A DNA stretch of 34,871 bases from a virus. Below the pieces are notes generated by a model that saw nothing but the letters and a program-made list of their open reading frames with translations, had not been told where the DNA came from and did no database searches. Of the stretch, positions 1,197 through 26,464 are shown piece by piece; the first letter of the stretch is position 1, and every line of letters starts with the position of its first letter. The DNA lies in the IMG/VR virus record IMGVR_UViG_3300047300_000076, positions 1-34,871 of that record; one strand, written 5' to 3'. Made by a program: the position numbers and the translations under genes.

Positions 1197-1574
1197 ATGA
1201 ATAATAAAAAACCACGTTTTCCTGGTCAAGTTGGCGAAACCAAGGTTCAGGTTATAGAAGAAAACTTTTCTTTATTTGGAACATATGTTTGGACTAAGCC
1301 AAATGGAAAAGCGTTTACAGATGGCAACGGTAACGCATTGTCAATTGAAGGACTCAAGGATGACAAGGCCAAGATCAAAGAGCTAGCAGATGCTGCTAAA
1401 TACTGGGGGCAACCAGAAGGACGTGCAGTATTCTATCCAAATATGCGGAAGATCTCAGATGAGGAATACTCAGAGCAGGTAGACAGAATGAATCAGGGTC
1501 TTATCCCATCTATGAATGACCTTGGTGCTGTAATCGCTGCTAAGAAAACACTAGAACTTTACGGAGATGAGTAA
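1197..1574 (+). CDS. Small head-module protein of unknown function upstream of portal
   Basis: 125 residues from ATG 1197. I prefer this over the GTG at 1191 because the -10 box TATACT at 1184-1189 is only seven bases upstream, which fits a leaderless transcript starting at the ATG; neither start has a Shine-Dalgarno sequence. The protein is soluble and mixed alpha/beta, with no signal peptide, membrane segment or recognised motif. Its central part has a WTKPNGKAF segment and a helical C-terminus (MNDLGAVIAAKKTLELYG). It overlaps the portal gene by one base (TAATG), so the two are probably translationally coupled. Its position suggests a head-assembly or packaging accessory, but I do not recognise the family. 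Confidence 0.6.
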   Translation: MNNKKPRFPGQVGETKVQVIEENFSLFGTYVWTKPNGKAFTDGNGNALSIEGLKDDKAKIKELADAAKYWGQPEGRAVFYPNMRKISDEEYSEQVDRMNQGLIPSMNDLGAVIAAKKTLELYGDE

Positions 1575-3211
1575 TGTCAGAATACCAGTATCAGATTGGT
1601 GCAAGCCTATCATCAGATGAGCAAGATACAGATATCTTTAAGTCACAAGACCCATTTAACAAGCCATGGGATGATCTAAAATCTTTTACTGGTCTAGAGA
1701 AAAACTTTAAGCGTCGCTCAGATAGGATTTCTAAGCTAAATGATCCATTGCTTCAGAACAGAGTTGTCAATACTGGCATTGACACAACATCTCCAAGATA
1801 TCAAGACTCAGCTCTTGCAATAAGAAGCGGTAAAGATGGAGCACAGTCAAAGGAAATTAATCCAGGTACAGTCTTCAGAAACGGTTATGGAATCTTTGAT
1901 GTTATTACTCCGCCATGGAACCTTTACGAGTTGGCAAACTATTACGACACTTCGTTTGCAAACCATGCAGCTATTGATGCAAAAGTAGAAAATATCGTTG
2001 GCCTTGGATATGACTTTGAGGTCTCAAAGAGAACTATGATGTCTCTAGATTCACAAACAAATGAGAGTGCTCTAGAAAAGGCAAAGAAGCGTATCGAGCG
2101 TATGAAGGTAGAACTTCGTGATTGGCTAGAAAGTTTAAATAGCGATGAGTCATTTACAAATGTGATGATGAAGGTCATGACTGATTTTGAGGCAACTGGA
2201 AACGGATACCTTGAAATTGGTAGAACTGTAAAGGGTGAGATTGGCTATGTTGGACACATTCCATCTACTACCATGCGTGTTCGTAGATTACGTGATGGAT
2301 ATGTTCAGATTATTGGACAGCGTGTGGTTTACTTTAGGAATTTTGGGGCAAACAACCCAAACCCAATTACTGCAGATCCAAGACCAAATGAGATTATTCA
2401 CTTTAAGTCATACTCACCATTAAACACATTCTATGGTGTACCTGATATTATTTCTGCAATTGGTTCATTGCATGGAGATCAGCTAGCATCGCAATATAAC
2501 ATTGATTACTTTACCAACAAGGGTGTCCCTCGCTATGTTGTTACCCTAAAGGGTGCAAAGCTTTCGGAAGATGCAGAAGATAAGATGTTTAGATTCTTGC
2601 AAACAAGTCTTAAGGGGTCTAACCACAGAACACTGTACATTCCCTTGCCTGGAGATTCAGATACTAACAAGGTAGAGTTCAAGATGGAGGCCGTTGAGAC
2701 TGGAACTCAGGAAGCATCATTTAATGAGTACCGCATCCGCAATCGTGACGATATTTTAGTTGCACACCAGGTCCCACTTTCTAAGATTGGTGGAGGAGAC
2801 TCTGCTGCTATTGCTGCTGCCCTTGCACAGGATCGCACTTTTAAAGAACAGGTTGCTAGACCAAGACAAGATGCAATTCAGAAGATGATCAACAAGATGA
2901 TACGTGAAAAGACTGATGTCCTTGAGTTTAAGTTTAATGAGCTAACCCTAACTGACGAAATTGCACAATCGCAGATTCTTGAAAGATACGTTAAGAATAA
3001 GATTATTGTGCCAGACGAGGCTCGTGAAATTCTTGGCATGGGGCCAAGACCAGATGGAGATGGCAGCAAGCCATTAGAGGTAAAGCCAGAGCAGTCTCCA
3101 AATAGCACAGGCAACGATGCAAGAGATGCAGAACGTGCCAACAATGCTTCTGACAGCACAGCGACGGTTGCTGGAAGAAATCCAAAAGGTGAAGGAAGAG
3201 CAAGTCAATAA
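1574..3211 (+). CDS. Phage portal protein (PBSX/HK97-like)
   Basis: 545 residues. Portal proteins form the dodecameric ring at one capsid vertex through which DNA is packaged and ejected and to which the tail attaches. The order of features fits the PBSX/HK97 group: a disordered N-terminal ~90 residues, then ITPPWNLYELANYYDTS and HAAIDAKVENIVGLGYDF, a core with TGNGYLEIGR and IHFKSYSPLNTFYGVPDI, and the region SFNEYRIRNRDDILVAHQVP followed by GGGDSAAIAAALAQDRTFKEQV near the crown. The last ~50 residues are Asn/Ser/Gly/Arg-rich and probably disordered. The length is normal for the family. It starts at ATG 1574 in a one-base overlap with the preceding gene and is followed by a 72-bp promoter region before the protease. 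Confidence 0.9.
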   Translation: MSEYQYQIGASLSSDEQDTDIFKSQDPFNKPWDDLKSFTGLEKNFKRRSDRISKLNDPLLQNRVVNTGIDTTSPRYQDSALAIRSGKDGAQSKEINPGTVFRNGYGIFDVITPPWNLYELANYYDTSFANHAAIDAKVENIVGLGYDFEVSKRTMMSLDSQTNESALEKAKKRIERMKVELRDWLESLNSDESFTNVMMKVMTDFEATGNGYLEIGRTVKGEIGYVGHIPSTTMRVRRLRDGYVQIIGQRVVYFRNFGANNPNPITADPRPNEIIHFKSYSPLNTFYGVPDIISAIGSLHGDQLASQYNIDYFTNKGVPRYVVTLKGAKLSEDAEDKMFRFLQTSLKGSNHRTLYIPLPGDSDTNKVEFKMEAVETGTQEASFNEYRIRNRDDILVAHQVPLSKIGGGDSAAIAAALAQDRTFKEQVARPRQDAIQKMINKMIREKTDVLEFKFNELTLTDEIAQSQILERYVKNKIIVPDEAREILGMGPRPDGDGSKPLEVKPEQSPNSTGNDARDAERANNASDSTATVAGRNPKGEGRASQ

Positions 3212-3245: not shown

Positions 3246-3274
3246 CGTAATATTGCAAAAAAGGGCTCTATAAT
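3246..3274 (+). promoter_or_regulatory. Structural-gene promoter: CGTAAT-N8-AAAGGGC-N2-TATAAT
   Basis: A perfect -10 TATAAT (3269-3274) has CGTAAT (3246-3251) at the -35 position with 17-bp spacing and AAAGGGC (3260-3266) two bases upstream of the -10. The same arrangement occurs before the major tail protein at 8890-8918, where 20 of 29 aligned positions are identical. Transcription would start near 3281, leaving about 3 bases before the protease ATG at 3284, which has no Shine-Dalgarno sequence. A second -10-like TATACT (3275-3280) overlaps. Confidence 0.55.
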
Positions 3275-3283
3275 TATACTACA

Positions 3284-4606
3284 ATGACTATTTCTAAGGC
3301 ACAGTGGACGACAGACGGAAATGACATCCGTCTCTCTATGCCACTCTCAAAAGTTGACCAAGAGAAGCGTATTGTTTCTGGCTTTGCCACGCTTGATAAC
3401 ATTGACAAGCAGGCCGATATTGTCACACCAGAGGCAAGCGTAAACGCATTTAAAAAATTCCGTGGCAATATTCGTGAGATGCACCAGCCAATTTCAGTAG
3501 GCAAGATGGTCTCATTTAGAGAAGATAAGTTTTTTGATCCAGAAACCAAAAAGATGTATAACGGCATCTATGTTTCTGCATATATTTCAAAGGGTGCTCA
3601 GGATACTTGGGAAAAGGTTCTTGATGGCACTCTTTCTGGTTTTTCTATCGGCGGTAGAATGAATAAGTGGGATGATGCCTACGATGAGAAGATGGATGCA
3701 AGTATCCGTATTATTAAGGACTATGATCTTGTTGAGTTGTCACTAGTTGACAACCCAGCTAATCAATTTGCCAACATCCTTTCTGTTCAAAAAGTTGACG
3801 GTACAAACGAGGCTTCTGGAATCGCAGTAGATACTGTAATTGAAAATGTATTCTACGACAAAGAAGCTGGCATTGCTATGCTATCAGAAGAAGAGACAAT
3901 GAATAGTCCAGTTTCTGGTGAGCCAATGCAAAATATAGGTTTCGTTGAAAAGAATGACAGCGAAAAATCAGAAATGATAAAATTCTTAGTTGATAGTGCT
4001 AAAGGCATTAGTCTTGCTAAGATGACAAAGGAGGTAAGTCCTATGACAGAAGAGACAACACAAGAAGCAACAGTTGAAAAGACTGATGCAGTTGTTGAAA
4101 ATTCAGAGGTCGCTCCAGAGGCAGAAGTTGTCGCAGATGCTCCAGCAGAAGATGTAGAAAAGTCAGATGCTGTGGAGAAGAGCGATGACAAAGATGAAGA
4201 TGACAAGCCAGGTACTGAGGTCATGGAAGAGTCAGACGATGAGTCTGGCAAAGAAGATGACAAGGAAGAGGCTAAGAAGTCAGATGATGTAGAGGATATT
4301 TCTAAGGCAGTTGCCGAAATGAAGGAATCTGTTACATCAGCCTTTAGCGATCTTGTATCAACAATCAAGTCAATGCAAGAAGAAATTTCAGTATTGACAA
4401 AATCACTCGATTCAGTAAAGAATGAGGTAACTGAGTCAAAGAGTGTATTTAACGAGTTTGGAAAGAGAGTAGATGCAGTAGAAGCAGATACAGCTTTCCG
4501 CAAGTCTGGCGATATCGGCGATATCGTGCAGGAACAGCCTGAGACACAGGTTGAAAAATCAATATGGGGCGGACGTTTCCTCAAAACTGCCGATCTATTC
4601 AGATAA
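3284..4606 (+). CDS. Prohead protease (XkdF/HK97-like) with C-terminal scaffold region
   Basis: 440 residues. The N-terminal ~175 residues resemble prohead serine proteases of the XkdF/HK97 type: VSGFATLDNIDKQADIV, then REMHQPISVGK (candidate catalytic His67), LSGFSIGGRM (candidate nucleophile Ser121) and a VELSLVDNPAN strand, a common signature of the family. Such proteases cleave scaffold and capsid protein during prohead maturation. After a linker (~175-250) the rest is very acidic (runs of Asp, Glu, Lys and Ser, ~255-345) and then predicted coiled coil (~350-410), ending in a basic-aromatic tail (SIWGGRFLKTADLFR), all typical of scaffolding protein. An internal ribosome-binding site allows the scaffold part to be made alone (see 4043). 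The start is ATG 3284, nearly leaderless. Confidence 0.85.
   Translation: MTISKAQWTTDGNDIRLSMPLSKVDQEKRIVSGFATLDNIDKQADIVTPEASVNAFKKFRGNIREMHQPISVGKMVSFREDKFFDPETKKMYNGIYVSAYISKGAQDTWEKVLDGTLSGFSIGGRMNKWDDAYDEKMDASIRIIKDYDLVELSLVDNPANQFANILSVQKVDGTNEASGIAVDTVIENVFYDKEAGIAMLSEEETMNSPVSGEPMQNIGFVEKNDSEKSEMIKFLVDSAKGISLAKMTKEVSPMTEETTQEATVEKTDAVVENSEVAPEAEVVADAPAEDVEKSDAVEKSDDKDEDDKPGTEVMEESDDESGKEDDKEEAKKSDDVEDISKAVAEMKESVTSAFSDLVSTIKSMQEEISVLTKSLDSVKNEVTESKSVFNEFGKRVDAVEADTAFRKSGDIGDIVQEQPETQVEKSIWGGRFLKTADLFR
4027..4035 (+). promoter_or_regulatory. Internal Shine-Dalgarno site inside the protease gene
   Basis: AAAGGAGGT lies seven bases upstream of an in-frame ATG (4043) inside the protease gene. 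It is as strong as the ribosome-binding site of the major capsid gene (AGGAGGT, six bases from its ATG), and it decides the start of the nested scaffold. Confidence 0.6.
4043..4606 (+). CDS. Nested capsid scaffolding protein (same frame as protease C-terminus)
   Basis: 187 residues, identical to residues 254-440 of the protease ORF, starting MTEETTQEATVEK. The start is supported by the strong Shine-Dalgarno AAAGGAGGT at 4027-4035 with ideal spacing. The product is an acidic Glu/Asp/Ser/Lys region, a heptad-like helix (AEMKESVTSAFSDLVST, IKSMQEEISVLTKSLDSVK) and a C-terminal basic-aromatic tail that could bind capsid subunits. In phage lambda the scaffold Nu3 is likewise translated from within protease gene C in the same frame; here the sequence shows the same organisation. 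The major capsid gene follows 20 bases later. The nested start is inferred from sequence and not proven. Confidence 0.6.
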   Translation: MTEETTQEATVEKTDAVVENSEVAPEAEVVADAPAEDVEKSDAVEKSDDKDEDDKPGTEVMEESDDESGKEDDKEEAKKSDDVEDISKAVAEMKESVTSAFSDLVSTIKSMQEEISVLTKSLDSVKNEVTESKSVFNEFGKRVDAVEADTAFRKSGDIGDIVQEQPETQVEKSIWGGRFLKTADLFR

Positions 4607-4626
4607 ATCACTTAGGAGGTGACAAT

Positions 4627-5760
4627 ATGTCGGAAGAAATTAAGAAAAACAATCCAGATGCAGCAGGTGCTGACAGCGGTCTTTACAACGGTGAAGGTGC
4701 ATTCGCATCTGGTTCAACAGCTGGTGCTAACGTTCCAGGCAACTACTCTGATGGTGGTGCTCTTGGCAACATCCCAACAGCTAACTTTGGTGTAACAACT
4801 GGACCTAACGCAGTAAATCCTTCAGGTGAGGCTGGCAGTGGTATCCTACGCCCTGAGCAGGCACGTCGTTTTATCGACTATGTTTGGGACGCAACTGTTC
4901 TTGCAAACGACGGTCGTCGTGTTACAATGAGAGCTAACACCATGGAACTTGAGAAGGTTAACGTTGGTGAGCGTGTTATCCGTGCAGCTGCACAGGCAAA
5001 CGGTGACTACACAAACACTGGTGCTACATTCTCTAAGGTAGAACTTACAACCAAGAAGATTCGTCTTGACTGGGAAGTTTCTGCTGAGGCTCTAGAAGAT
5101 GGTATTGAAGGTGGTGCTCTTGAGGATCACCTAGTACGTCTAATGACCAACGCATTCGCTAACGACATTGAAGACCTTGCCATTAATGGTACAGGTACAG
5201 GTAACGATGCATTCTTGTCAATCATGAATGGTTTCGTTAACAAGGTTAAGAATGATGGAGATGCACACGAAGCTGTTGTTACAGTAGCTGACAATGCATG
5301 GACTCCAGAAGTAATGCAGAAGATTATCTTGGCAATGCCACGTAAGTACCGTGCACTTAAGAACAACCTTAAGTTCTACGCTGGTACTGACGCATTCCAG
5401 GGAATCGTAAAGCACAACGGTACACTTGCTGACGCTATTGCTGAAGCATTCGCTGGTACTCCAGCAGGTACCCCTGCAAACCGTCAGGCTTACCTAGACG
5501 GTGCTGGTCAGACATTTGGTGGTGCTCGCACTACTCGTGTTCTTGGCGTAGATGTTCAGGAAGTTCCATACTACCCAGAAGGCTACGTTGACCTTACATT
5601 CCCTCAGAACCGTGTTTGGGGTATGCAGAGAGACATCACTGTAAACCGTGAATACAAGCCAAAGAAGGACACAATTGAATACACAGTATTCGTCCGCTTT
5701 GGTATTCAGTGGGAAGAGCAGGATGCGGTTGCGTTCGCTGACGCTGCTGCAGATAACTAA
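4627..5760 (+). CDS. Major capsid protein (HK97 fold)
   Basis: 377 residues from ATG 4627, chosen over the upstream in-frame ATG 4564 because AGGAGGT (4614-4620) sits six bases before 4627 and because 4564 lies inside the protease gene. The first ~75 residues are Gly/Ala/Asn-rich and flexible. The rest follows the HK97-fold capsid pattern: an arm and E-loop region (ANDGRRVTMRANTMELEK, GERVIRAAAQ), the spine helix (LEDHLVRLMTNAFANDIEDL followed by AINGTGTG), the A domain (PRKYRALKNNLKFYAGTD) and a final VDLTFPQNRVWGMQRDITV and FVRFGIQWEEQDAVAFA strand pair typical of phage capsids. Arginine is mostly CGT/CGC, unlike tail genes that favour AGA, consistent with very high expression. A hairpin terminator follows. 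Confidence 0.93.
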   Translation: MSEEIKKNNPDAAGADSGLYNGEGAFASGSTAGANVPGNYSDGGALGNIPTANFGVTTGPNAVNPSGEAGSGILRPEQARRFIDYVWDATVLANDGRRVTMRANTMELEKVNVGERVIRAAAQANGDYTNTGATFSKVELTTKKIRLDWEVSAEALEDGIEGGALEDHLVRLMTNAFANDIEDLAINGTGTGNDAFLSIMNGFVNKVKNDGDAHEAVVTVADNAWTPEVMQKIILAMPRKYRALKNNLKFYAGTDAFQGIVKHNGTLADAIAEAFAGTPAGTPANRQAYLDGAGQTFGGARTTRVLGVDVQEVPYYPEGYVDLTFPQNRVWGMQRDITVNREYKPKKDTIEYTVFVRFGIQWEEQDAVAFADAAADN

Positions 5761-5778
5761 TCTGTAAACAGTACCTTT

Positions 5779-5813
5779 TAGGGGGCAGGGGCATCCAAGC
5801 TCCTGCCCCTTAT
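5779..5813 (+). terminator. Hairpin terminator after the major capsid gene
   Basis: GGGGCAGG (5782-5789) pairs perfectly with CCTGCCCC (5802-5809). Further pairs (G5790-T5801, G5791-C5800, G5781-T5810, A5780-T5811, T5779-A5812) extend it to about 13 bp around an 8-base loop. The downstream T-run is weak (TTATCTCAT), as is common for terminators in actinobacteria, so termination may be partial. Confidence 0.7.
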
Positions 5814-5825
5814 CTCATATAATAA

Positions 5826-5834
5826 TGTTATAAT
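5826..5834 (+). promoter_or_regulatory. Extended -10 promoter TGTTATAAT
   Basis: TGT-TATAAT is a perfect extended -10, with another TATAAT just upstream (5818-5823). Transcription would begin near 5841, giving a leader of about 19 bases that carries the Shine-Dalgarno sequence AAGGAGG (5849-5855) of the next gene. The 12-mer ATAATGTTATAA here (5822-5833) also occurs at 3231-3242. Confidence 0.5.
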
Positions 5835-5859
5835 ATACATAGACACCGAAGGAGGAATT

Positions 5860-6318
5860 ATGTCTGAAGATATTAAAAACGAAGATGTAGTCCCAGAAGC
5901 AGTTATAGCAGAAAAGCCAGTTATTGCACCAGAAGTTGCTGATAAGGCAGAAGAAATTGTTGCAGAAATTAAGGCAGAAGCTAAAATTGAAGAGGCACCA
6001 AAGCCAGCAGAAGATGTTATCACTGGAGCATCAGCTCCATCAACCACAGAAAAGCCAGCTCTTGGCTCAGTGGCAGATGGTGTAATTGGCACATCAACAG
6101 CTAAGGCTGCTAAGAAGGCAGCTCCAAAGCCAAAGGTAGAGGAAAAGCGTGATGATGTTGTTGCCCTATATTCTCCAAGAAATCTTCACTGGGAAGGCGT
6201 TGGAAGACTCTCTAAGGGCTTTAACGTTGTATCTAAGGATGCAGCTGAGAAATGGCTTACAAGAGACGGAATCCGCCTAGCTGATCCTAAAGAAGTTGCA
6301 AAGGGATACGGACTATAA
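5860..6318 (+). CDS. Acidic/Ala-rich head-module protein (decoration or connector candidate)
   Basis: 152 residues; ATG 5860 is five bases after AAGGAGG. The N-terminal ~95 residues are low-complexity Ala/Glu/Pro/Lys/Val and probably disordered. The C-terminal ~60 residues form a compact basic-aromatic domain (DDVVALYSPRNLHWEGVG, then GFNVVSKDAAEKWLTRDGI, ending KEVAKGYGL). Similar short C-terminal domains follow capsid genes in many siphoviruses, where they are usually annotated hypothetical or head-associated. Position between the capsid and adaptor genes suggests head decoration or connection, but I cannot assign a function. It overlaps the next gene by one base (TAATG). Confidence 0.65.
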   Translation: MSEDIKNEDVVPEAVIAEKPVIAPEVADKAEEIVAEIKAEAKIEEAPKPAEDVITGASAPSTTEKPALGSVADGVIGTSTAKAAKKAAPKPKVEEKRDDVVALYSPRNLHWEGVGRLSKGFNVVSKDAAEKWLTRDGIRLADPKEVAKGYGL

Positions 6319-7223
6319 TGGAAGTATTGAGGGTTCCACCATTTCCACTAACTACAACATGGGATTTACCAGATCCTAATTACGGCTATATCGTATATGT
6401 TGAGGATTTGGTGGACCACTCAATCGAAGAGTCAACCATTACATCTGACTCAAATGGCAGGGTAGTGTACACGCTACCACTTACAAAGGTACAGTTTGAT
6501 AGACAGTTCCTGATTAGATTTTACGATGCTGAACATGAGCATGTTATTTATGAATCAAATCTAGATATTATTAGACCATACACTGACCCATCACTTCTTG
6601 GAACAACTGCATCAGAGATTGCAGAATACAAAATGCTAGAGCTTGTTGCTAGATCAATTATTGACACAGCAACAGACGGTGGATTCTATAACCACAAGTC
6701 TATATATCAGGTTTCTGGAAATGGGTCTGACTATATTCCAATTTGGAGAGATGCAAACCGTGTGCTAAAGGTATACGAAAATAATGTTTTGGTTTATGAT
6801 GCTGATTCTACTAATAATCAGTTTATCTATAGAGTCACACTTGATAACTCAGCAATTGAGAGGGTAGAGACCGATGCCGTTAATAGGCTAGAATCCCCAA
6901 TCATTAGAGTTCCAGTTGCAAGAGGAGACCTTGCTTTTGGTGTTACAAATCCTGGAAGCTTTCCAGCAAACTATGACTACCTGTTTGTTTTAGACGAAGG
7001 GTATCGTGCCATTCCAGCAGATATCGAATATGCGACAAAGCTCCTTATTGAAGATATTAAATGTGGCAAGCTTGATTATTATCAAAGATACGTCACATCA
7101 TACAACACTGACCAGTTCAGAATTCAATTTGACAAGCAGCTGCTAGAAGGAACAGGTAACGGAATAGTAGACAAGATACTTGAAAAGTATAAGAAGTCTA
7201 TTACTAAAGTCGGAGTACTGTAA
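6318..7223 (+). CDS. Head-to-tail adaptor candidate
   Basis: 301 residues, starting at the TAATG junction. The N-terminal half is beta-rich (TTTWDLPDPNYGYIVYVED, VVYTLPLTKVQFDRQFLIRF), resembling an immunoglobulin-like domain. The C-terminal half has the helical pattern of connector proteins: PADIEYATKLLIEDIKCGKL, then DYYQRYVTSYNTDQFRIQFD and a final helix GNGIVDKILEKYKKSITKVG. Adaptors of this type (HK97 gp6/SPP1 gp15-like) form a ring under the portal. Gene order after capsid and before a stopper-like gene agrees. The extra N-terminal beta domain makes it longer than usual adaptors. The assignment rests on position and secondary-structure pattern. Confidence 0.55.
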   Translation: MEVLRVPPFPLTTTWDLPDPNYGYIVYVEDLVDHSIEESTITSDSNGRVVYTLPLTKVQFDRQFLIRFYDAEHEHVIYESNLDIIRPYTDPSLLGTTASEIAEYKMLELVARSIIDTATDGGFYNHKSIYQVSGNGSDYIPIWRDANRVLKVYENNVLVYDADSTNNQFIYRVTLDNSAIERVETDAVNRLESPIIRVPVARGDLAFGVTNPGSFPANYDYLFVLDEGYRAIPADIEYATKLLIEDIKCGKLDYYQRYVTSYNTDQFRIQFDKQLLEGTGNGIVDKILEKYKKSITKVGVL

Positions 7224-7672
7224 TGGTAGTATGCGAAAAAACTGACTTCGTATTCCCAATGACAGCAGAGGTGTTCTATCCTACTGTAGAGCAGGGTGCA
7301 TACGGCAATGTAAAAAAGTCCTGGATTCACAACAAAACAGTTGCCTGCTATTTTGCATCAGCTGCAGGTGCAGCAAAAGAAGAAGTTATCCCAAATGTAA
7401 ATATCACCAGAGAACTAGTTTTGGTTGGTCGTGTAAAGTCTGACATCAGAGTTAATATGCAGCAGGATGGTCAGGCAATAACTAATATTGTTGTAAGCAA
7501 CATTAAAGATAATCTTGGAAATAATATTTATATGGAAACCTCTGGTGTTCGTGATGGTAAGGCAACCATTTTTGAAATTGCTTCTCAAGAGCCAATCGTT
7601 GGTCCATTTGGATCAGTAGAATACTATAAGGTTGTTTTGAGAAGATCAGAAAACCAGGGGGTAGATGTCTAA
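7223..7672 (+). CDS. Head closure / stopper protein candidate
   Basis: 149 residues, mostly beta strands, with an early segment MTAEVFYPTVEQGAYGNVKK and a closing strand GSVEYYKVVLRRS. The size and beta-barrel character fit head-closure (stopper) proteins of the SPP1 gp16/HK97 gp7 kind, which seal the portal channel after packaging. It is the second of four genes joined by one-base overlaps between the adaptor and the tail terminator, the usual place for the stopper. No catalytic motif or membrane segment is visible. Confidence 0.5.
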   Translation: MVVCEKTDFVFPMTAEVFYPTVEQGAYGNVKKSWIHNKTVACYFASAAGAAKEEVIPNVNITRELVLVGRVKSDIRVNMQQDGQAITNIVVSNIKDNLGNNIYMETSGVRDGKATIFEIASQEPIVGPFGSVEYYKVVLRRSENQGVDV

Positions 7673-8346
7673 TGTCTATTGCAATAACCTGGGATGATAG
7701 AGCATTTAAAAAAGAGATGGATAATCTAATACAGTATTCCATTGGATTCTTGGATGGTGTTAAATCTGGCAAGAACGTATTTTTGAATAATTTGGGTAAG
7801 TCAACAGTAGATGCCCTAAAAGACTTTATAGACTCAATGGCCAGAGTTGATCACCAAATGTTGCACCATGTCTATGAGTGGAATCAGACTGGAAATCCAT
7901 CAGCTAGGCTTTTTGACATTAATTATTCTGTAGTTTCTGGAGGCCTATCCATTAATTCAACACTTAGTCAGTCTAAGGTAGCAGCATCTGGAGCAAGTAG
8001 ACCATTCTACAATAAGGCTTACATAATGGAAAATGGTGTTCCAATCACGATTACTCCAAGAAAAAAAGCACTACGCTTTGAGGTAAATGGAGAAACTGTG
8101 TTTACTAAAAAGCCAGTCACAATTACTAATCCTGGTGGACAAGAGGTACAGGGTGGATTTGAGCAGACAATGACAACATTTTTTAATAGCTATTTTTCTC
8201 AAGCATTTTTAGAAAGAAGCGGTATTAATAAGTATTTGCAGACACCAACACTATATGATAAATATCTGTCAGCTGGCATGAAGGGTGGACGCTCTGTTGG
8301 GTTATCTGCAGGCTATAACTGGATGGCAAAGGCAGGTATTGCATAA
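7672..8346 (+). CDS. Neck / tail-completion protein candidate (HK97 gp10-like)
   Basis: 224 residues. It begins with ITWDDRAFKKEMDNLIQYS, a helix like the start of HK97 gp10-type tail-completion proteins, and has the segment SQSKVAASGASRPFYNKAYIM followed by basic ITPRKKALRF. The C-terminus is Gly-rich. Such proteins act at the head-tail interface. Gene order (adaptor, stopper, this protein, tail terminator, tail tube) is the standard one for long-tailed phages and supports the call more than sequence does. Confidence 0.5.
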   Translation: MSIAITWDDRAFKKEMDNLIQYSIGFLDGVKSGKNVFLNNLGKSTVDALKDFIDSMARVDHQMLHHVYEWNQTGNPSARLFDINYSVVSGGLSINSTLSQSKVAASGASRPFYNKAYIMENGVPITITPRKKALRFEVNGETVFTKKPVTITNPGGQEVQGGFEQTMTTFFNSYFSQAFLERSGINKYLQTPTLYDKYLSAGMKGGRSVGLSAGYNWMAKAGIA

Positions 8347-8894
8347 TGGCAATTTATTATCCACCAGCATTTATTAATGCATATATGCAAGAAAAAATTA
8401 CAGAATATTTTAGGGATAACCCTCTAGATGGTTTTACAGGTGATACGACATTGCCCTTTTTCCCAACTTCGCCAACAGATATTGATACCCTAATGGACCA
8501 ATTCCCAAGCGGTAATGGGCAGTTTGCTGTATATGATCGAATGCTAAAAATGCGTAGAAAGCCATTCCCACATATTAAGTCAGAACAGCTGTTGTATTAT
8601 TTTTATGCTACTGGCCAAAACCCAATACCATTCATTATAGAGGTTGCCCAAAGGGTTCAGGATTTACTAGACAACGAAGATGAATCAGCTCAGGAGCTAA
8701 ATTCTTGGGCAAGAGCAAAACAGTCCTCAGATCAGCCTTTGCGTGGCGATAACAACGAGGTGCTCCCACTACCATTCTTTCATAAGATTAGGATATATCA
8801 GCTAGAAGAGACAAGAGATCTCATAGACTTTGGTACAGCCAGGACCTATGCAGGAAACAAAATAATTATTGATTACGATTGGCATAAATCGTAA
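8346..8894 (+). CDS. Tail terminator protein candidate
   Basis: 182 residues. Mixed alpha/beta with FPHIKSEQLLYYFYATG and FIIEVAQRVQDLLDNEDES, then FFHKIRIYQLEETRDLIDFG and a C-terminal GNKIIIDYDWH strand. A strand-helix-strand protein of this size immediately before the major tail protein is normally the tail terminator, which caps the tail tube and joins it to the neck. Position is the main evidence. It starts at a TAATG overlap, and its stop lies within the promoter of the major tail protein: the -35-like CGTAAT covers its last bases. Confidence 0.55.
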   Translation: MAIYYPPAFINAYMQEKITEYFRDNPLDGFTGDTTLPFFPTSPTDIDTLMDQFPSGNGQFAVYDRMLKMRRKPFPHIKSEQLLYYFYATGQNPIPFIIEVAQRVQDLLDNEDESAQELNSWARAKQSSDQPLRGDNNEVLPLPFFHKIRIYQLEETRDLIDFGTARTYAGNKIIIDYDWHKS

Positions 8895-8918
8895 TTATAT
8901 CATAAAGGGCGGTATACT
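8890..8918 (+). promoter_or_regulatory. Structural-gene promoter: CGTAAT-N8-AAAGGGC-N2-TATACT
   Basis: CGTAAT (8890-8895), AAAGGGC (8904-8910) and TATACT (8913-8918) have exactly the order and spacing seen before the protease gene at 3246-3274. Predicted transcription starts near 8925, giving a leader of about 47 bases. In that leader CTTATT (8941-8946) can pair with AATAAG (8955-8960), just before the ribosome-binding site. Confidence 0.55.
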
Positions 8919-8971
8919 TATAACGAGGAAACGAAGCCCACTTATTCCATAAGAAATAAGAGGTGAAAAAT

Positions 8972-9610
8972 ATGGCATATACACGTGGTACAAGTGCCAA
9001 CATTATTGTTGGTGCAGCAGCCCTCTTCACATACGAAGACGGTGTGCTTACTGATGCAGATCTTCCAGCATATGCAGCTGGTAGCTCGTTTGTAGAGACT
9101 CTACAGACAGGAGCAACAGCTCTTAACAACTGGACATCTGACGATGGATTCCGCAATGTTGGTTACACCAGCAACGGTCTTGAACTACAGTTCCAGCCTG
9201 ACTTCGGTGAAGTACAGGTTGACCAGGTTCTTGACGTAGCCAAGCTTTACAAGCAGGGCATGCAGGTTAACATGAACACTACATTTGCTGAAGCTACACT
9301 AGAAAACCTTCTATTTGCTCTTGCAAGCAAGGACACCAACCTGACTTCAGGTACAGGTATCCAGACTCTGAATCTTTCAGCAGGTGAGCTTGGTGAGTGC
9401 CCAGTAGAGCGTGGTCTAGTTGCAGTTGGTCCTGGTACAGGAGACTGTGCAGCAAATGAGGAAAGAATCTATGTTGCTTACCGTGCACTCTCAATTGAGA
9501 ATGTTACAGTAGCTGCAAAGCGTGACGAAGCTACCCAGTTTGAGGTATCTTTCCGTCTGCTTCCAAATGACTCAGCATCTTACGGCAAGATCGTTGATCG
9601 TACATACTAA
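8972..9610 (+). CDS. Major tail (tube) protein
   Basis: 212 residues. ATG 8972 is preferred to the in-frame GTG 8963 because the Shine-Dalgarno AAGAGGTG (8959-8966) lies five bases before it and overlaps the GTG. The protein has the features of tail-tube subunits: N-terminal TSANIIVGAAALFTYEDG, the strand pattern DDGFRNVGYTSNGLELQFQP with GEVQVDQVLDVAKLYKQG, a helix TLENLLFALA after NMNTTFAEA, and a C-terminal half ending EATQFEVSFRLLPNDSASYG. It is flanked by a promoter shared with the capsid unit and by a strong terminator, and Arg codons are mostly CGT/CGC, all consistent with high expression. The next genes are the chaperones and the tape measure. Confidence 0.85.
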   Translation: MAYTRGTSANIIVGAAALFTYEDGVLTDADLPAYAAGSSFVETLQTGATALNNWTSDDGFRNVGYTSNGLELQFQPDFGEVQVDQVLDVAKLYKQGMQVNMNTTFAEATLENLLFALASKDTNLTSGTGIQTLNLSAGELGECPVERGLVAVGPGTGDCAANEERIYVAYRALSIENVTVAAKRDEATQFEVSFRLLPNDSASYGKIVDRTY

Positions 9611-9625
9611 AAATTAAATATAGAG

Positions 9626-9666
9626 AAGGCTGCCCTGGGAAATATCCTGGGGCAGCTTTATTTTTT
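9626..9666 (+). terminator. Strong intrinsic terminator after the major tail protein
   Basis: GCTGCCCTGGGA (9629-9640) pairs along 12 bp (two G-T pairs) with TCCTGGGGCAGC (9645-9656) around the 4-base loop AATA, extended by three outer pairs. It is followed by TTTATTTTTT (9657-9666). This is a canonical rho-independent terminator. The last T of its tract is also the first base of the next promoter's TGC-TATAAT. Confidence 0.9.
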
Positions 9667-9674
9667 GCTATAAT
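9666..9674 (+). promoter_or_regulatory. Extended -10 promoter TGCTATAAT for a leaderless chaperone gene
   Basis: TGC-TATAAT is a perfect extended -10 directly fused to the preceding terminator. Six bases separate it from ATG 9681, so the first transcribed base should be at or next to the A of the start codon. No Shine-Dalgarno sequence can be present in the transcript. Confidence 0.65.
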
Positions 9675-9680
9675 TAACTA

Positions 9681-10376
9681 ATGGCTACAAGCGTATATAC
9701 AAAAGAAACAGTCTCTACTATCGATGGTATTGAGATTGAGGTATCTCCACTCAAGATTATTTATCTTAGAGAATTTATGGAGTCTTTTCAGCTGCTTAAA
9801 GAAGCCATCAATGATGATATGGCTCTCACCTTTATGTGTGATTGCGTAAGGGTAGCTATGAAGCAGTTTTATCCACAGATAGCTAGTGTTAGAGACGTAG
9901 AAGATAATTTTGATATCAAGACAATACGGAATATACTTAAGGCATCTGCTGGTATTAATATAGATCCAGATGAAGAAGATTTGGCTGAGCAAGCAAAGAA
10001 CGATGAAGAAGGATCTACTTGGGAAACTTTTGATATTGTTCCACTAGAGGCTGAGCTTTTTATGCTTGGAATTTGGAGAGACTTTGAGGACTTAGAAAGG
10101 TCAATCTCCATGCCAGAGCTAAAGGCACTTCTAGATGCTAAACGTGAAAAAGATTATGCAGATAAAAAATTTGCTGCTGCTTTGCAGGGCGTAGACCTAG
10201 ATGAGCAAAGTGGTCGTAAAGAAGAAAATGCCTGGGAAAAGATGAAAGCTAGAGTGTTTAGTGGTGGTAAAGCTAATGACTCAAATGACATATTGGCATA
10301 CCAAGGAGCTAATGCATCAAAGGTTGGCTTTGGAATTGGTATGGGCCTAGGCTATGAAGATTTACGTCAAAATTAG
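9681..10376 (+). CDS. Tail assembly chaperone, long form (GT-like)
   Basis: 231 residues. Residues ~8-95 (IDGIEIEVSPLKIIYLREFM, DCVRVAMKQFYPQ, VEDNFDIKTIRNILKASAG) are paralogous to the next gene. The C-terminal part has the T-domain pattern common in these chaperones: LEAELFMLGIWRDFEDLE, then SISMPELKALLDAKREKDY and DKKFAAALQGVDLDE. These proteins keep the tape measure soluble and guide tube polymerisation. In most siphoviruses the long form (GT) is made by programmed ribosomal frameshifting from the short form; here it is one uninterrupted frame with its own promoter. It is probably leaderless, because TATAAT ends six bases before ATG 9681. Confidence 0.75.
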   Translation: MATSVYTKETVSTIDGIEIEVSPLKIIYLREFMESFQLLKEAINDDMALTFMCDCVRVAMKQFYPQIASVRDVEDNFDIKTIRNILKASAGINIDPDEEDLAEQAKNDEEGSTWETFDIVPLEAELFMLGIWRDFEDLERSISMPELKALLDAKREKDYADKKFAAALQGVDLDEQSGRKEENAWEKMKARVFSGGKANDSNDILAYQGANASKVGFGIGMGLGYEDLRQN

Positions 10377-10431: not shown

Positions 10432-10743
10432 GTGTCTACAGAAAAGAAAACAATTACTCTTATTGATGGAACAGAAATAGAAATTAGACCTTTGAAGGTT
10501 TCACTATTGCGTCAGTTTATGAAGAAGTTTGAGGGGCTGCCAAAGGTAGCAGACAATAACGATAAGTCAATGGATCTACTTATTGAATGCGTACAGATTG
10601 CTTTTAAGCAGTATGCACCAGAGATTTCAGAAGACAAGGCAAAGCTTGAGGATAACATAGATTTGCCAACGGTGTACAAGATCATTGAGGAAGCATCAGG
10701 TTCTGAGCTTGCTGGACAAGGATTGAGTTCACTTCAAGGATAA
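10432..10743 (+). CDS. Tail assembly chaperone, short form (G-like)
   Basis: 103 residues from GTG 10432, four bases after a strong Shine-Dalgarno AAGGAGG. It aligns over nearly its full length with the N-terminal ~90 residues of the preceding gene: IDGTEIEIRPLKVSLLRQFM, ECVQIAFKQYAPEIS and LEDNIDLPTVYKIIEEASG correspond to IDGIEIEVSPLKIIYLREFM, DCVRVAMKQFYPQIA and VEDNFDIKTIRNILKASAG. It lacks the T-domain. Around its stop, the -1 frame closes at a TAG at 10755 and the +1 frame at a TGA at 10751, so no frameshifted extension into a T-domain is possible. Located 18 bases before the tape measure gene, the usual place for these chaperones. Confidence 0.75.
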   Translation: MSTEKKTITLIDGTEIEIRPLKVSLLRQFMKKFEGLPKVADNNDKSMDLLIECVQIAFKQYAPEISEDKAKLEDNIDLPTVYKIIEEASGSELAGQGLSSLQG

Positions 10744-25912: not shown

Positions 25913-26464
25913 ATGGAAAAGAAGCCACATCGTTTGGGGGCTATGTCTCGTGAAGAGTATAACAATGCCCCAGTTATCCCTGGAAGCAAGAAGGTATACT
26001 TTTTGAACGGTGATCTAGTCAGAGTACATCATCTAAATAGATCTAATGGAATCATGTCTGTTTATAACATTATACAAGACAGGATTGAAAGCTGCCTTAT
26101 TAGTGATTTTAAAAAGAATAGAGAGCGAGCATTTACAGTTGGCGAGACTGCTAGTTTAGTTAATCGTCATAAAAAGTATATGCCATCTCTAGTCAGAAGA
26201 GGCATTGTTCCACCTGCTATGGGGTCTCAAAAGGGTGGTAAGACTGGCTGGCAAGTTAGATCTTATTACTCAGAGTCGCAAGTTTTTGAACTTCGTGATA
26301 TACTGGCTTCATACCACATTGGTGGTCCAAGAAAAGACAAGTTAATAACTAACAATATAACTCCGACACGCCAAGAGTTGACAAGGCGTATGGGAGATGG
26401 TATACTAACATATACAAAAACAGAAGATGGCAGATTCATTCCAGTATGGTCTGAGTCTATATAG
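25913..26464 (+). CDS. Helix-turn-helix (MerR/excisionase-like) DNA-binding protein
   Basis: 183 residues from ATG 25913 (a TTG at 25907 is in frame but a poorer start); no good Shine-Dalgarno is seen. The N-terminal ~70 residues contain a small beta domain (KKVYFLNGDLVRVHHLNRSN, GIMSVYNIIQDRIESCLISD). Residues ~73-125 match a MerR-type winged helix: FTVGETASLVNRHKKYMPSL, VRRGIVPPAM, then a GGKTGW turn and SYYSESQVFELRDILASYHI. The rest (NITPTRQELTRRMGDGI) is basic. It lies exactly between the tail and replication modules, and its 3' end carries the promoter of the replication genes, so a role in the switch between transcription programmes is plausible but unproven. Confidence 0.65.
   Translation: MEKKPHRLGAMSREEYNNAPVIPGSKKVYFLNGDLVRVHHLNRSNGIMSVYNIIQDRIESCLISDFKKNRERAFTVGETASLVNRHKKYMPSLVRRGIVPPAMGSQKGGKTGWQVRSYYSESQVFELRDILASYHIGGPRKDKLITNNITPTRQELTRRMGDGILTYTKTEDGRFIPVWSESI
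26378..26406 (+). promoter_or_regulatory. Consensus sigma-70-type promoter for the replication module
   Basis: TTGACA (26378-26383), 17 bp, then TATACT (26401-26406) with TGG directly upstream (extended -10). This is the closest match to the canonical promoter in the window. It lies inside the 3' end of the HTH gene and predicts transcription from about 26413, some 66 bases before ATG 26479. Confidence 0.7.

Follow-up and report, generated by a model that had tools for sequence, protein, structure and literature searches.

Two promoters in the window (the whole stretch of DNA analyzed, a linear 34,871-base fragment forming a complete IMG/VR record) appear to carry a lineage-specific phage box in place of a −35 element. 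One lies ahead of the protease and major capsid protein genes and the other ahead of the major tail protein gene. Comparison with relatives strongly supports this capsid/tail element as a promoter and shows the box itself, its restriction almost entirely to two promoters, the terminators behind both units, and the lack of a −35 sequence. We consider it fairly probable that the element is phage-specific, that a DNA-binding factor made by the phage reads it, and that its targets are two short units, each ending in a terminator. A preliminary description of this DNA had proposed a phage-specific element common to the capsid and tail-tube units, with CGTAAT at the −35 position. The common element recurs at both places in dozens of relatives and scarcely occurs in the rest of their genomes, whereas the CGTAAT part does not stand.

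Organization of the Two Elements

Genes in the window are ordered as portal (1574–3211), protease, major capsid protein, tail tube protein, and tape measure, followed by replication genes that encode a DnaB-like helicase, primase, DNA polymerase III alpha, and RecA. Matches to PHROG families agree with the identities previously assigned to the genes near both elements, namely protease, major capsid protein, and major tail protein (table 1). The elements are found exactly at 3246–3274 and 8890–8918, are identical at 20 of 29 positions when aligned by eye, and are the sole two matches in the window when up to three mismatches are allowed on both strands (expected number 0.02; two matches never arose in a shuffle). 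With the −10 hexamer set at −12 to −7, the protease–capsid box AAAAAAGGGC spans about −24 to −15. Start sites derived from spacing to the −10 would place the beginning of the protease–capsid transcript near 3281, nearly leaderless with its ATG at 3284, and that of the tail-tube transcript near 8925. Directly before the −10, the tail-tube copy in the window has CGG, not TGn.

The window is from an uncultured freshwater clade of phages whose hosts are presumably actinobacteria. The hints at such a host are a related phage contig carried within an actinobacterial MAG and the presence of WhiB in the phages. The phage contigs studied are incomplete. Two neighbors after the tail tube gene, 9681–10376 and 10432–10743, both match phrog_10504 and look like a duplicated tail chaperone-type gene.

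Table 1. Coordinates of features in the window and of box-like sites in phage Jay2Jay.
Feature	Position	Strand	Remark
CGTAAT, proposed −35, outside the conserved element	3246–3251	+	Absent from family-wide logo
Box AAAAAAGGGC, protease–capsid promoter	3257–3266	+	A-tract and GG nearly invariant in 40 non-redundant relatives
−10 hexamer TATAAT, protease–capsid promoter	3269–3274	+	Invariant in relatives
Head maturation protease, first gene of unit	3284–4606	+	phrog_9427, E 2.6e-116
Major capsid protein	4627–5760	+	phrog_1623, phrog_10; homologs annotated major capsid protein
Terminator-like hairpin closing protease–capsid unit	5779–5812	+	−27 kcal/mol
CGTAAT, proposed −35	8890–8895	+	Overlaps last codons of gene 8346–8894 (AAA TCG TAA)
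Box AAAGGGC, tail-tube promoter	8904–8910	+	A-tract and GG kept in 42 non-redundant relatives
−10 hexamer TATACT, tail-tube promoter	8913–8918	+	TATAMT in nearly all relatives
GAGGAAAC, presumed 5′ end of tail-tube mRNA	8925–8932	+	Invariant in freshwater clade
Major tail (tube) protein, Ig-domain	8972–9610	+	phrog_2175, phrog_885; homologs annotated major tail protein
Terminator closing tail-tube unit	9626–9659	+	Equivalent hairpin in relatives
MerR-like helix-turn-helix protein, candidate box reader	25913–26464	+	Viral HTH/merR fold matches
Jay2Jay TTTGCWT-N17-TAnnnT sites	NC_029098: 21909, 22453, 25842, 28187, 33768		Endonuclease, endolysin, gp51, protease, tail

Conservation of the Box and −10 Hexamer

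Approximately 80 related loci were gathered via the capsid protein, and hundreds more exist. In nearly every relative, an A-tract, GG(G/C), 3–4 bases, and TATAAT or TATACT succeed one another upstream of both the protease and the tail gene. Logos of non-redundant promoters (n = 40 for the protease, n = 42 for the tail gene) position four to five A and then GG at −22 to −16 and show that TATAMT is kept, and over the roughly 80 contigs as a whole the conserved part is A4–6 GG(G/C), 3–4 bp upstream of the −10; further upstream, the same 40 and 42 promoters hold little or no information and nothing resembling a −35. The logos also show that protease promoters lack TGn and that most tail promoters of relatives have it. 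The box of the tail gene is more variable than that of the protease and includes AAACG, AAACC, and AAAGC forms.

Spacing between box and −10 is constant at 3–4 bp although the downstream context differs. At the protease, 9–10 bases separate the −10 from the ATG in 51 of 55 relatives and the mRNA should therefore be nearly leaderless, a type common in mycobacteria (PMC4633059). At the tail gene, GAGGAAAC begins 6–7 bases after the −10 in all aligned relatives, and the tail-tube mRNA probably begins with it. The tail leader of Streptomyces relatives has GAGGAAG instead, followed by a CTAGCC motif. AAAAAGG as a Shine–Dalgarno sequence was ruled out; the box is 18–20 bases before the ATG, with the −10 in between.

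CGTAAT is present at both copies in the window and its nearest relatives, and is conserved family-wide at neither locus. Relatives that share the C-terminus DWHKS use other codons and lack CGTAAT, except for L003. When CGTAAT plus the box was searched collection-wide, only contigs close to the window matched among related phages. Because the sequence is a coding end at the tail gene and is restricted to the closest contigs, it is not a conserved −35.

The Box Is Nearly Confined to Two Short Transcription Units

Across the window and 13 long related contigs, 27 position-weight matches reach at least 17 bits, compared with 0.3 in Markov controls, and most are the protease or tail promoter. In cross-validated rankings of all −10-like sites, the tail promoter comes out on top in 8 of 14 contigs when the box is trained on protease promoters; with training on tail promoters, the protease promoter is first in 11 and within the top three in all 14. 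The pattern AAAAGG-N3/4-TATAMT with a start signal recovers 19 sites in these 14 contigs, 18 of which belong to the protease or major tail gene (2 sites for a reversed-box control), and such exact-pattern counts are conservative where boxes are degenerate. Likewise, among the matches listed in a scan of the viral collection with TAAAAAGG-N3-TATAAT-N2-A were 17 relatives, all with the site at one of the two genes (the protease in 15, the tail gene in 2). The box was rejected as a motif of unrelated phages, since matches in phages other than relatives resemble chance hits or ordinary TTGACA promoters.

The element is absent from 31 genomes of the family to which the MAG with the related phage contig belongs, a family that is a guess at the host. 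In the phage contig inside that MAG, the protease box is a variant, AAACGG, accompanied by TGn. A single further clear promoter of the AAAAAGG type occurs, at G006:12065 and in L200, before a leaderless 262-aa gene (MKSIYDIQ...) whose product looks by eye like a glutathione-peroxidase-type protein. Similarity searches with a single protease-promoter sequence were set aside as too weak in AT-rich freshwater contigs.

These phages have three promoter classes: TTGACA-N17-TATAMT, leaderless TGnTATAAT-N6-ATG, and AAAAAGG. The first class has 42 sites (2 in the control), in agreement with the earlier view that the capsid/tail element is distinct from TTGACA promoters. The leaderless class, TGnTATAAT-N6/7-ATG with no −35, serves many genes (42 exact sites vs. 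1 in the control over ∼1 Mb; examples in the window are 1184–1189 and 9669–9674) and is almost absent in the possible host family. A match to TTGACA-N17-TATACT at 26378–26406 of the window falls within the final part of the MerR-like gene, ahead of the replication genes, and recurs at the same spot in related contigs; coding sequence may account for the recurrence. Behind the capsid gene, 99% of 78 relatives have a strong terminator-like hairpin, and behind the tail gene 98% of 44 do; the corresponding control stretches gave 1% and 5%. With a terminator behind each unit, each AAAAAGG promoter is therefore predicted to drive a short closed unit.

Lineage-Specific Boxes in Relatives

Among isolates, the closest are Streptomyces phages of Stanwilliamsviridae, with proteins less than 60% identical to those of the window. 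Faust, BillNye, Jay2Jay, and LukeCage are like the window in gene order, in having homologous protease, capsid, tail, and MerR-like proteins, in the terminators found behind the capsid gene and behind most tail genes, and in a box common to the same two genes. They are unlike it in the box itself, which is TTTGSCTTT or TTYGCWTSATAA and is located at about −36. In this family, the box that protease and tail genes share is subfamily-specific: ATTTGSCTTT with variants in Loccivirinae, and TTYGCWTSATAA in Boydwoodruffvirinae, where the Karimac group has GCATGATAAT. Across the 133 kb of Jay2Jay, TTYGCWTSATAA occurs exactly twice, at the protease and tail promoters. Trained matrices, which include those sites, give both promoters the top two ranks in all four phages, and a single-sequence search that omits the −10 ranks the tail promoter first in Jay2Jay, third in Faust, and seventh in LukeCage. 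Upstream of the −10, similarity between protease and tail promoters is 7.7, 11.0, and 10.5 within lineages and 5.2–7.2 between them. Searching Jay2Jay for TTTGCWT-N17-TAnnnT with start signals yields five sites, compared with none in the control (table 1), a promoter class that resembles T4 MotA boxes. Loccivirinae also have AAAAGG 19 bases before the protease ATG, like the window. In Rhodococcus phage Trina, both promoters are TGnTATAAT with no obvious shared box.

With a trans-acting factor, one would expect the box to change in parallel at two unlinked promoters. The boxes, each particular to its lineage and placed at the same two genes, fit a trans-acting phage factor that co-evolves with its targets, and they lend indirect backing to the earlier suggestion that such a factor reads the box. 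An alternative is that the promoter was duplicated separately inside each lineage. Relating the box at −22 in the window to the one at about −36 in Streptomyces phages assumes homology of mechanism.

A Candidate Factor and Alternative Explanations

Of the proteins considered, the MerR-like protein encoded at 25913–26464 is the best candidate for the putative factor, possibly together with the phage WhiB. It is present in 13 of 13 related contigs and in all four complete Streptomyces phages examined, and the 127 Streptomyces phage records that have it equal in number those with the protease and capsid genes. A tblastn search had suggested that Rhodococcus relatives lack it, which was overturned by a diverged copy that a profile search detected in Trina. 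Across the freshwater clade, the helix-turn-helix segment hardly varies, and it differs between lineages. Homologs in isolates are annotated as MerR-like, Pfam HTH_17 matches weakly (E 0.14), and good fold matches to an AlphaFold model of modest quality (pLDDT 66) are viral HTH/merR proteins, with no confident match in the PDB. Against this candidate, core status does not establish binding at the box and the predicted model is only moderate. WhiB is encoded by six of six isolates and five large freshwater contigs, and proteins of this type contact region 4 of sigma-A. Because the MerR-like protein and WhiB are both encoded, a two-protein scheme like that of T4 AsiA/MotA is possible.

We propose that host RNA polymerase would read the −10, while a phage-encoded DNA-binding protein would bind AAAAAGG(G/C), directly upstream of the consensus hexamer and with no −35, and recruit or stabilize the polymerase. 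The MerR-like protein may be this binder, and the phage WhiB perhaps loosens the grip of sigma on −35 sites. Acting on the protease–capsid and tail-tube units, presumably late, such a mechanism would cause the two most abundant virion proteins to be made together and strongly. The arrangement suggests that one virus-made switch protein turns on the shell and tail-tube genes together.

In an alternative explanation, host sigma-A polymerase, with the actinobacterial CarD/RbpA, could read AAAAAGG directly as an unusual spacer or extended −10 element, such that no phage factor is required and the box simply makes both promoters strong. The box abuts the extended −10 region, where the protease promoter lacks TGn, and many other promoters of these phages are TGn-containing and have no −35. 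We nevertheless regard this explanation as unlikely. The element is absent from genomes of the guessed host family, hardly any promoters other than these two carry the box, and the differing boxes of Streptomyces phages are unexpected under a conserved host enzyme, although the hosts differ. Phage sigma factors are known from other freshwater actinophages (PMC10202952), and a highly divergent one missed by Pfam could read both box and −10. That is improbable given that sigma-70 regions 2 and 4 (PF04542/PF04545) have no match in 14 related contigs and region 2 (PF04542) has none in six complete isolates, that the −10 matches the host-type TATAAT perfectly, and that spacing from the box varies by one base. 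A search for MotA (PF09158), run without a positive control, had no match either.

The box could also be a repressor operator, or a signal at the RNA level in read-through transcripts, rather than an activating promoter element. In some tail promoters, AAAAGGGC faces a downstream GCCCTTTT, which could form a hairpin or dyad. But the pairing does not exceed that of re-paired controls (8% of shuffles reach it), the protease promoter has no such partner, and the box keeps its distance from the −10 while the start codon of one gene lies ∼45 bases farther away than that of the other, all of which makes this role improbable. Chance or coding similarity of two AT-rich promoters accounts for CGTAAT at the tail gene, yet as an explanation of the whole it is close to nil and is refuted for AAAAAGG: 0.02 occurrences are expected in shuffles, and both loci are conserved in dozens of relatives in noncoding DNA.

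The switching of virion genes in large actinophages is little described, and our literature searches turned up neither promoter nor transcript maps of this phage group. The results amount to a concrete promoter grammar of three classes, a two-promoter regulon, and one candidate regulator. A broader generalization, which we advance tentatively and hold as doubtful, is that the MerR-like protein, core to a large group of actinophages, is an unrecognized activator of virion genes. It would act with host polymerase and with WhiB remodeling sigma region 4, on a lineage-specific box at two or few promoters, and box (at −36 or −22) and protein would have co-evolved. If true, a MerR-like route joins the known ways by which phages redirect host polymerase.

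Comparison with Known Promoter Systems

Middle promoters of T4 pair a host-type −10, often with TGn, with a phage box that replaces the −35 (the MotA box, with AsiA, in sigma appropriation; PMC2988021). The logos indicate that the element in the window is similar in having a host −10 and no sigma-70 −35, and TTTGCTTYA of Streptomyces relatives resembles the MotA box, WWWTGCTTtA. The systems differ in that AAAAAGG is 3–4 bp from the −10 and not near −30, in that the box of Streptomyces relatives is 15 bp from the −10 whereas the MotA box is 12 ± 1 bp from it, and in that the box of the window marks virion genes. The element is also unlike a sigma-70 extended −10 promoter, as TGn is missing from protease promoters and from the tail copy in the window.

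MerR proteins bind between the −35 and −10. Because no −35 is seen, spacers in the window are not of the long 19–20-bp type of this family. BldC, which is MerR-like, recognizes a narrow, AT-rich groove together with a G-C pair (PMC5859096). An A-tract followed by GG, as in the window, is compatible with a BldC-type reading. Lambda-type Q-dependent late promoters have a factor site between the −35 and −10, a placement like that of the box; unlike these promoters, those in the window drive units that each end in their own terminator.
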